A stretch of 44,236 nt of DNA from Candidatus Omnitrophota bacterium (GTDB lineage: Bacteria > Omnitrophota > Gorgyraeia > 2-02-FULL-51-18): positions 1 through 44,236 of the forward strand of contig JACPWF010000027.1 in NCBI GenBank assembly GCA_016197155.1, given 5' to 3'. Under the pieces are notes generated by a model. It ran no database searches and had not been told where the DNA came from. It saw only the letters and a list, made by a program, of their open reading frames with translations. Shown piece by piece: positions 2,307 through 12,625 of the stretch. Numbering within the stretch: the stretch's first letter is position 1; each line of letters opens with the position of its first letter. A program made the position numbers and the translations under genes.

Positions 2307-2339
2307 TGAAAATTCATCCTCCACGACGACCTCATACAT
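2303..2339 (-). pseudogene. duplicated 5' end of queD
   Basis: Reading down from 2339, this segment encodes MYEVVVEDEFSA. It matches 11 of the first 12 residues of the downstream queD-like gene (MYEVTVEDEFSA), yet most third codon positions differ. It then runs into the palindrome at 2274-2306 and the frame ends at 2250 inside queD. It begins inside the murI stop region. It looks like the remnant of a second queD copy or the scar of recombination between two homologues. If translated, it would be a 29-residue upstream peptide overlapping the queD start. Confidence 0.7.
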
Positions 2340-3186
2340 GGAGCGCGGCTTCGGTAAACGGATCGGCGACCTTGGCCACCGAATGGATGGGGCTTCCCAA
2401 AAAGCGCTCACCGAGCGTGCGAAATTGCTCCGGTTCATCCGACACGTAAAAACGCACGGCCTGCCCGGCGGGCCTCTCGATCGAAGCGCTTTGAGGAAGA
2501 CGGTTCCGGACCTCTTTGGCCGTTTCCTCGGCGGAATTCACCAGGCGCACATGCTCGCCGACGATTTTTTGAATCACGCGCGACAAAAGCGGGTAGTGCG
2601 TACAGCCCAAAATCAGCGTGTCGATGCCGAAAGTTTTTAAGGGTTCCAAATAAATCCGCGCCGCTTCCGACACCACCCCGCCTTCGAGCCAGCCCTCCTC
2701 GACAAAAGGGACAAACAAGGGACAGGCCTGGCTATAAACCTTCACCGACGGACGGAGTTCTTTCAAACAATGCTCGTACGCGGAGCTTCCGATCGTGGCC
2801 TTTGTGCCGATGACGCCGACGCGGCCGTTCCGCGTGCACGCGATCGCCGCCCGCGCGCCCGGCTCGATGACGCCGACGACCGGCATCGAAAAACGCTCTT
2901 TCAAAGTCTCGAGGCTGAGCGAGGAGGCGGTGTTGCAGGCCACGACGGCCATCTTCACGTCAAAACTCTGCAGGAATTTTACGTTTTCAATGGAAAACTT
3001 CGTGATGGTCTCTTTGGATTTGGTTCCGTAGGGCACGCGCGCGGTGTCGCCGAAATAAACGATGGGTTCCGCCGGAAGCCGGCGCCGGATCTCGCGCAGG
3101 ACCGTGAGGCCGCCGATGCCCGAATCAAAAATCCCGATCGGCCGTTCGCGGCCGCTCTCGGCGTGGTCAGCGCGCGCGGCCGGCAT
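2332..3186 (-). CDS. murI: glutamate racemase
   Basis: MurI interconverts L- and D-glutamate in the cytoplasm to supply peptidoglycan synthesis, without cofactor. The two catalytic cysteines are in CNTASS (C84) and GCTHYPLL (C195). The N-terminal GIFDSGIGGLTV and the YFGDTARVPYG segment are family hallmarks. At 284 residues the length is normal, with ~15 extra N-terminal residues. The start lies within the last 20 bp of the upstream amidase gene, so both cell-wall genes are probably translated from one mRNA, followed by queD and queE. Confidence 0.96.
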   Translation of the reverse strand: MPAARADHAESGRERPIGIFDSGIGGLTVLREIRRRLPAEPIVYFGDTARVPYGTKSKETITKFSIENVKFLQSFDVKMAVVACNTASSLSLETLKERFSMPVVGVIEPGARAAIACTRNGRVGVIGTKATIGSSAYEHCLKELRPSVKVYSQACPLFVPFVEEGWLEGGVVSEAARIYLEPLKTFGIDTLILGCTHYPLLSRVIQKIVGEHVRLVNSAEETAKEVRNRLPQSASIERPAGQAVRFYVSDEPEQFRTLGERFLGSPIHSVAKVADPFTEAALHV

Positions 3187-8344: not shown

Positions 8345-8570
8345 AAATTTTTACGCGAAAGGGTATTCTACCGATTTCCCGGCGAGCTGGAAAGAATAAA
8401 CTTATGGAGGCGGCGAGAATTGAACTCGCGTCTCTAACCTTCGAGTTCCGAAGCTTCTACATGCTTAGCCGGTTCTTTAAATTTCCCCTTCAAACTCGAA
8501 CGGGCACGATTTTGAAAGGTAAGCCTCATGTCGCTCTCGCCGAATCTACCTGAGACGCGTAAACCCGGCC

Positions 8571-8612
8571 TCCGCCAAACTGCGCGGCGGATCCGCCTTG
8601 TACTGTGGCGGA
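8571..8612 (-). repeat. two tandem 21-bp palindromes inside the tmRNA gene
   Basis: 8571-8591 and 8592-8612 are each TCCGCC, nine bases, GGCGGA, joined head to tail. The first (plus-strand TCCGCCAAACTGCGCGGCGG then A) matches the palindrome at 2280-2300 read on the minus strand at 19 of 21 positions. They fall ~60 nt after the tag stop, in the region normally holding the tmRNA pseudoknots, and would fold as two extra 6-bp hairpins. Confidence 0.85.
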
Positions 8613-8672
8613 AGCCTGTTGTCGACGCCCGGCCTCATCCCACAGACGAGGATGAGCGGACGGCAGCCGTTA

Positions 8673-8732
8673 TTAGGCGGCTAGCGGTAACGCCATGGGC
8701 CCCGCGAAGGGTACCCGGATCGTGTTTTTGGC
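8673..8732 (-). CDS. tmRNA tag peptide reading frame
   Basis: The frame that ends in LAA and the TAATAA stop reads AKNTIRVPFAGPMALPLAA if it resumes at the GCC (Ala) at 8732-8730. The A-rich ATCAAAC before it resembles the region upstream of known resume codons. The tag is longer than the usual 10-15 residues but keeps the hydrophobic C-terminal LAA recognised by ClpXP-type proteases. The resume codon is an inference; a start one to three codons further upstream is possible. Confidence 0.7.
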   Translation of the reverse strand, partial: AKNTIRVPFAGPMALPLAA

Positions 8733-8831
8733 GTTTGATTTTTGCCAGGTGTTTAAGGAGGCCTCCTGACAACCTCCGCATGCCACTCACGGATCAAAGG
8801 GCTAGATCGATACCTGTCGCCCCCGTTTCCA

Positions 8832-12363: not shown

Positions 12364-12445
12364 TGCGGAAGGAGAGATTTGAACTCTCAACCCTTGCGGG
12401 ACTAGCTTCTGAGACTAGCGCGTATGCCAATTCCGCCACTTCCGC
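12364..12445 (-). tRNA. tRNA-Leu (CAG)
   Basis: Acceptor GCGGAAG (12445-12439) pairs with CTTCCGC (12371-12365), with discriminator A at 12364; CCA is not encoded. The anticodon stem CTAGT/GCTAG encloses the loop CTCAGAA, giving anticodon CAG, which reads CUG. The variable arm TCCCGCAAGGGT is long, as in class II tRNAs, and the T-arm GAGAG-TTCAAAT-CTCTC is intact. It follows citrate synthase on the same strand. Confidence 0.96.
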
Positions 12446-12451
12446 CAAACG

Positions 12452-12497
12452 ATGCCAATTCCCTGCCTGCCGGCAGGCAGGCGCCACTTCCGCTAAA
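12452..12497. repeat. duplicated tRNA-Leu 5' end interrupted by a 20-bp palindrome
   Basis: The segments 12452-12462 and 12483-12497 together repeat the tRNA 5' region and flank (12424-12449) with one mismatch. Between them lie exactly 20 extra bp (12463-12482) carrying the palindrome CCTGCCTGCCGGCAGGCAGG. The uninterrupted original is 3 bp away, so this is an empty/occupied site pair with no clear target duplication. Confidence 0.8.
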
Positions 12498-12546
12498 AGG
12501 TCAGCCAATTTTCGCCGTACGCCCGTTTTTGGCGGACGGACGAATC

Positions 12547-12585
12547 CCTGTCTGCCGGCAGGCAGGCGCCGCGCTCTTTGGCGGA
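12547..12585. repeat. second 20-bp palindrome abutting a 21-bp palindrome relic
   Basis: 12547-12566 matches the 20-bp palindrome at 12462-12481 at 19 of 20 positions. The overlapping 12565-12585 is GGCGCC, nine bases, GGCGGA. It matches the 2280-2300 palindrome at 18 of 21 positions, with its left end apparently overwritten by the 20-bp element. The gap between tRNA-Leu and citrate synthase (12446-12625) is made largely of such elements. Confidence 0.75.
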
Positions 12586-12625
12586 CCGCCAAAAATTTCC
12601 ACAGTTTTCGCTTGGATCATCCGGC

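Follow-up and report, generated by a model that had tools for sequence, protein, structure and literature searches.

The ssrA (tmRNA) gene of an uncultured Omnitrophota bacterium contains 42 bp that we interpret, with a probability of about 0.87, as a double-hairpin copy of a small dispersed Omnitrophota insertion element, seated flush in the PK2/PK3 joint since a shared ancestor and belonging to a family that is tolerated in harmless sites. The gene lies in the window, the whole 44,236-nucleotide contig that was analysed, which is part of a 1.43 Mb draft genome; all sequences compared are draft assemblies. The insert is present in some relatives and absent from others, occurs at two different sites in ssrA, is dispersed through genomes and is found in frame in protein genes whose homologues show the empty site. 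We infer that the element moves by copying, that the enlarged tmRNA works and that the insert is tolerated.

Architecture of ssrA and its insert

ssrA is located on the minus strand at 8402–8824 and is 423 nt long (381 nt without the 42 bp). It was identified by Rfam family RF00023 (8402–8824, 153.9 bits, E = 8e-61, model positions 1–374) and by ARAGORN, which calls a tmRNA at 8405–8824 on the minus strand with the tag AKNTIRVPFAGPMALPLAA. The RF00023 match is full-length, and the tag ORF and the tRNA-like ends are all present. The element (8571–8612, minus strand) consists of two exact head-to-tail copies of TCCGCC-N9-GGCGGA, which in the RNA sense are unit 1 (TCCGCCACAGTACAAGGCGGA, 8592–8612) and unit 2 (TCCGCCGCGCAGTTTGGCGGA, 8571–8591). 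The first-pass annotation had already recognized this tandem pair and placed it between the tag stop and the tRNA-like 3′ domain; the position can now be given precisely as the joint between PK2 and PK3. In the last stem of PK2, the 3′ strand (ACAGGC, 8614–8619, minus strand), assigned from the sequence with GUCUGU as its partner and an equivalent pairing in relatives, lies one base from the insert, and PK3 (GCCGGG/UUCGGC and GUCUCA/UGAGGC, 8523–8569, minus strand), assigned from the sequence and the family alignment, follows directly after it. The order in the RNA sense is PK2 ending in ACAGGC-U, TCCGCCACAGTACAAGGCGGA, TCCGCCGCGCAGTTTGGCGGA and then GGCCGGG of PK3. Removal of the 42 bp was expected to leave a tmRNA of normal length, and the resulting 381 nt indeed fall among the 377–391 nt of most insert-free ssrA genes of the family.

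Folding of the element RNA gives z scores of −3.8 to −6.0. The predicted folds differ among the copies: those from genome G001 and ssrA sequence G002b form two hairpins, that from G004 forms two hairpins enclosed by an outer stem, and that from the window's genome (G000) forms a single long hairpin containing an inner stem. The insert would therefore add two short GC hairpins, or in G000 a single longer one that encloses an inner stem, outside the pseudoknot ring, and these would leave the tmRNA tag, the pseudoknots and the tRNA-like domain intact.

Filled and empty sites in relatives

The ssrA alignment comprises 19 sequences: that of the window's genome, 17 more from the family and order, and one from a further member of the class. 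Of the 17, three carry the insert (two at the PK2/PK3 joint and one elsewhere) and the others lack it. The 42 bp insert at the PK2/PK3 joint (site 1) is present in three genera, represented by G000, G001 and G004. In G002b a near-identical 42 bp pair (TCCGCCACAAATCGTGGCGGATCCGCCAATTTTTTTGGCGGA) occupies another joint, between PK4 and GACTAAGCATG just before the tRNA-like 3′ domain, and the PK2/PK3 joint is empty. The alignment check proposed by the annotation thus found the 42 bp absent from 12 aligned ssrA sequences of the family and order (G003, G005, G006, G007, G008, G009b, G009c, G010, G011, G012, G014 and G015), in which the joint is flush (GGCT|GG, for example CAGGCT|GGTC). The 42 bp are the sole difference between filled and empty sites. 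When 384 genomes of the class were scanned with sequence patterns for both insertion sites, insert-bearing ssrA was found, among the matches listed, in four (G000, G001, G004 and G002); among the sequence listed, the remaining matches contained no ssrA-like sequence or no unit. The copies of G001 (locus L067, identical to L123, JACQQX010000027, Omnitrophota) and G002b (L069 of genome G002, identical to L156, JAHFFM010000050, Omnitrophota) agree at 40 of 42 bases, although they lie at different ssrA sites.

G000 and G001 are sisters on the MetG tree (98/98). The insert is thus common to a sister genus and is not a one-off of the window's strain; the site 1 insertion would date to an ancestor shared at least with G001. 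G004 does not group firmly with these two (AU p = 0.06 on ssrA and 0.26 on MetG), and site 1 may have been hit once or twice, or the insert lost in between. The two different sites indicate that ssrA was entered at least twice overall.

If the hairpins were an ancestral structural part of the tmRNA in this lineage, lost by some relatives, the filling of the same joint in three genera would be accounted for. This reading is highly improbable: neither the family's other ssrA genes nor the sister family have the insert, it is absent, among the matches listed, from the rest of the 384 class genomes, and the same sequence recurs at another ssrA site (G002b) as well as in genes unrelated to ssrA. 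The annotation had regarded hairpins at the same place in all relatives from other genera as the mark of such an ancestry; those relatives are mostly empty, two other genera share the insert and one has the pair at a different joint, so that the empty sites and the second ssrA site refute this ancestry. The empty sites in relatives also led us to reject a covarying helix inherited from an ancestral tmRNA.

Dispersal of the 21 bp unit

The genome-wide count suggested by the annotation returned seven exact TCCGCC-N9-GGCGGA units in the window's genome and none of the reversed pattern, also a palindrome, that served as control. By a first-order Markov estimate based on the window, 0.6 exact units would be expected in 1.43 Mb and 2.5e-7 tandem pairs per genome. 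Over 59 relatives the exact units number 256 against 14 for the reversed control, G035 having the most with 34. As the window is 56% GC and ssrA joints vary, the hairpins might be put down to chance in a GC-rich, rapidly evolving region of the gene; the expected number of tandem pairs, the exactness of the 42 bp module and the same sequence at two sites make this origin negligibly likely, and the dispersion of the units refutes it. The proposal that a small dispersed element had entered a structured RNA is thus borne out as to dispersal, but its scope needs widening: the element is confined neither to this genome nor to tmRNA, and the unit of spread is the 21 bp module, often doubled. The arrays in the set examined are 39 single and 88 double, giving element lengths of 21 or 42 bp. 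The tandem form occurs as 99 stretches in GTDB genomes, and its hosts among the loci listed are all Omnitrophota (or Omnitrophica) except for one Elusimicrobia record. No tandem copy was found in the viral contigs of IMG/VR, and phage carriage was rejected on this ground.

Units also lie elsewhere in the window. One single unit (2280–2300, strand unassigned), located by exact match and ORFs, lies between queD (1888–2280) and murI (2332–3186); its reverse complement agrees with the ssrA unit at 8571–8591 at 19 of 21 positions, the same count as in the annotation. Another, TC|CGCCGCGCTCTTTGGCGGA (12545–12585, strand unassigned, from the sequence), is split by a different, 20 bp palindrome, CCTGTCTGCCGGCAGGCAGG, and CCTGCCTGCCGGCAGGCAGG recurs about 85 bp away (window 12441–12600); families of palindromes thus nest in one another. 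In genome 45_10b the tandem forms a separate subfamily (ACC CGA GAC / GTT CTG CTG; L095, L103, L105, L114, L130, L159, L163 and L166) housed within GATTGCTTCG...CGCTCGCAATGAC or GATCCTTC...CAGGATGAC palindromic repeats.

Arms, loops and flanks

The oriented tandem consensus is TCCGCC ACA NNN CRY GGCGGA TCCGCC AAG NNN TTT GGCGGA, in which the inner triplets vary. The three site 1 copies are identical in all 24 arm positions, with loops 33–72% identical and the remaining ssrA 77–82% identical, so that the arms are more conserved than expected of a neutral relic, a point that counts against the main reading. Variant arms that retain pairing occur as partners (CCCGCC/GGCGGG in G000 and G001, and TGCGCC/GGCGCA). 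Decayed copies were looked for in the window's genome and rejected, since one-mismatch units are in only slight excess there (15 against 10 for the control). At up to one mismatch G001 has 39 copies (26 exact, control 9) and G045 has 38 (32 exact, control 2), and the high-copy genomes (G001, G045 and G027) hold few one-mismatch copies beyond the control. This pattern fits either young, renewed copies or constrained arms. Constraint would be expected if the hairpins were under selection, with the invariant TCCGCC/GGCGGA arms co-opted, in tmRNA as in other RNAs, as a site for protein binding or for processing, and the 24/24 arm identity beside divergent loops, the scarcity of one-mismatch copies in G001, G045 and G027 and the maintained pairing of CCCGCC/GGCGGG in G000 and G001 all fit that reading. 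We nevertheless consider it improbable, as the sites are heterogeneous (proteins, repeats and RNAs), most relatives do without the hairpins and exact arms are also expected from recent copying.

The flanks of the 87 tandem copies contain no GTAG or CGTC tag, showing just a weak bias to T on the left and a purine on the right, and no target-site duplication is visible, either between filled and empty ssrA or in a protein gap of exactly 14 residues. A stem of 8 bp across the insert is found in 11 of 86 tandem copies, whereas cross-paired flanks average 2.65 and reach 6 at most; this is suggestive of insertion within flanking inverted repeats, although the excess derives in part from related host repeats.

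These flanks also bear on a REP reading, in which a RAYT (Y1 tyrosine transposase) encoded in the same genome would mobilize the units; we regard this reading as doubtful. Short palindromes, doublets and hairpin loops are common to both, REPs measure 20–40 bp (PMC3733652) and PF01797 genes occur in 48 of 59 genomes. The tag, however, is missing from the 87 flanks; G022 (93% complete) carries 12 units but lacks PF01797, whereas G026, with 11 PF01797, contains no unit; and in G000 no unit-bearing contig carries a PF01797 gene. A RAYT gene flanked by the repeats, as is associated with REPs, was not seen: in neither G000 nor G001 does a PF01797 gene lie close to a unit, and copy numbers do not match across genomes. 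RAYT/Y1 transposases, widespread as they are, were rejected as the mover, since tag, linkage and copy-number match are all missing.

Units in other structured RNAs

Similar placements are found in other RNA genes. In RNase P RNA, where the helix names are our reading of alignments, a tandem lies within the P9 loop of L107 and three units form P9, P12 and P19 of G001; the rnpB genes of G000, G003, G005, G007 and G008 have units or arm variants inside or beside them, with units in G000, G007 and G008. Short repeats are also tolerated inside a ribozyme gene in the case of the STRR repeats of cyanobacterial RNase P RNA, which are short tandem repeats, unlike palindromic doublets. In a Moco riboswitch the final hairpin has its loop taken up by a tandem, and another tandem adjoins the conserved GGCAAACC at the 5′ edge of the c-di-GMP-I riboswitch aptamer. 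In c-di-GMP-I riboswitches of several genomes (L072/L094, L081, L110, L125, L137 and L164; two are above the Rfam threshold and the others were identified by eye) the tandem abuts the same base 5′ of GGCAAACC, owing to shared descent or to a hot spot.

Units are also carried by tRNA gene copies, including those of tRNA-Val; in G001 they lie in the D-loop or anticodon stem of copies adjoining intact tRNA genes. Partial or duplicated unit-bearing copies are seen in G001 at L240 950–1510, L239 1150–1210, L238 190–310 and L230 1040–1400, beside intact genes for tRNA-Val, tRNA-Lys, tRNA-Thr and tRNA-Met. When the elements were excised in silico and ARAGORN was rerun, only one tRNA spanned the junction, the other cases being truncated copies beside intact genes. 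Elsewhere in the window's genome (L007) a unit at 1501–1521 follows another small hairpin and precedes the 16S gene (from 1549) by 27 bp, and an Omnitrophota contig (L101) matches group I introns at 2140–2474 (RF00028, 61.5 bits).

Units inside protein genes

Within ORFs of at least 100 residues lie 56 of the 87 distinct tandem loci, many of these ORFs being spurious. In proteins supported by Pfam on or around the insert the element is in frame and is usually translated as SATxRGGSAKxFGG, a 14-residue Ser/Ala/Gly linker; the hosts include PurA, MoeA, a DEAD helicase, Lnt, MnmE and GH94. By our reading, this codon phase is used in about 15 of 16 inserts within or between supported domains (the exception is L096), a ratio that is indicative only, since the set was partly picked by eye. 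The helicase of L168 aligns to the window's own uninterrupted homologue with a gap of exactly 14 residues, PurA aligns to PDB entry 4m0g with a gap of 13 residues and MoeA shows a gap to gephyrin at the element; for an insert-bearing valyl-tRNA synthetase the alignment is too loose around the insert to establish a gap. One unit lies within leuS of the window's genome.

Comparison with known systems and proposed mechanism

The closest parallel is provided by the RPEs of Rickettsia, which are described in a review (PMC2229807, citing Ogata 2000, 2002) as dispersed palindromes that occur in frame in conserved protein genes and also in tmRNA and RNase P RNA genes and are apparently near-neutral. 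RPEs are 105–146 bp long with long terminal inverted repeats. Compared by features, the Omnitrophota element resembles them in its in-frame insertion into conserved proteins (PurA, MoeA, DEAD helicase, Lnt, MnmE and GH94, among others) and in having entered the genes for tmRNA and RNase P RNA, but its units are 21 bp, single or double. By analogy, it would work like an RPE. The RHE/DHE of fungal and sponge mitochondria are single or tandem double hairpins with conserved stems and variable loops that sit in rRNA genes and, without frameshift, in genes, and are retained in transcripts (PMC2800124). Compared by description, the Omnitrophota element likewise has double hairpins with stems conserved over loops; unlike these organellar elements it occurs in a bacterial phylum and targets tmRNA, rnpB, riboswitch and protein genes. 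REP elements of the GTAG and CGTC families are palindromes that form doublets at high copy number, some of them intragenic (PMC3733652). Our element is similar in size and in its palindromic doublets, but differs in having no GTAG/CGTC tag or linked RAYT and in inserting into structured RNAs and in frame into proteins, and it differs from MITEs in having no target-site duplication. We do not claim membership in RPE, REP or MITE, because the defining features tested (length, tag and duplication) do not agree. A limited search of the open-access literature found no published description of such repeats in Omnitrophota.

The insertions are flush and modular (21 or 42 bp) and tend toward joints, tips and loops. 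Two head-to-tail units would insert, leaving no visible duplication, at the one-base PK2/PK3 joint, and the family may persist in places that can take up one more hairpin or a brief Ser/Ala/Gly linker with little harm: at the joints of structured RNAs and the tips of their hairpins, in the loops of other palindromes and of proteins, and in intergenic DNA. Spread would be by copying, probably as single-stranded hairpin DNA; neither a linked transposase nor a donor molecule was identified for the units. It is possible, although we put this forward tentatively, that the element represents a minimal class of mobile DNA, a 21 bp palindromic module, often doubled, with constant arms and varying loops, which settles in RNA tips and joints and in repeat hairpin loops by a single-stranded-DNA or hairpin-templated route unlike those of REP/RAYT or MITEs.

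In the literature found, invasion of tmRNA, RNase P RNA and, in frame, proteins by a palindrome has been a peculiarity of Rickettsia. Its independent occurrence in a distant uncultured phylum, with a 21 bp module, suggests that such a lifestyle recurs. The copies are in effect natural insertion experiments, which point to tmRNA joints and RNase P helices that may accept extra hairpins and to protein sites that may accept a 14-residue linker, and exact arms, variable loops and flush insertion together turn the mechanism of mobility into a testable question.
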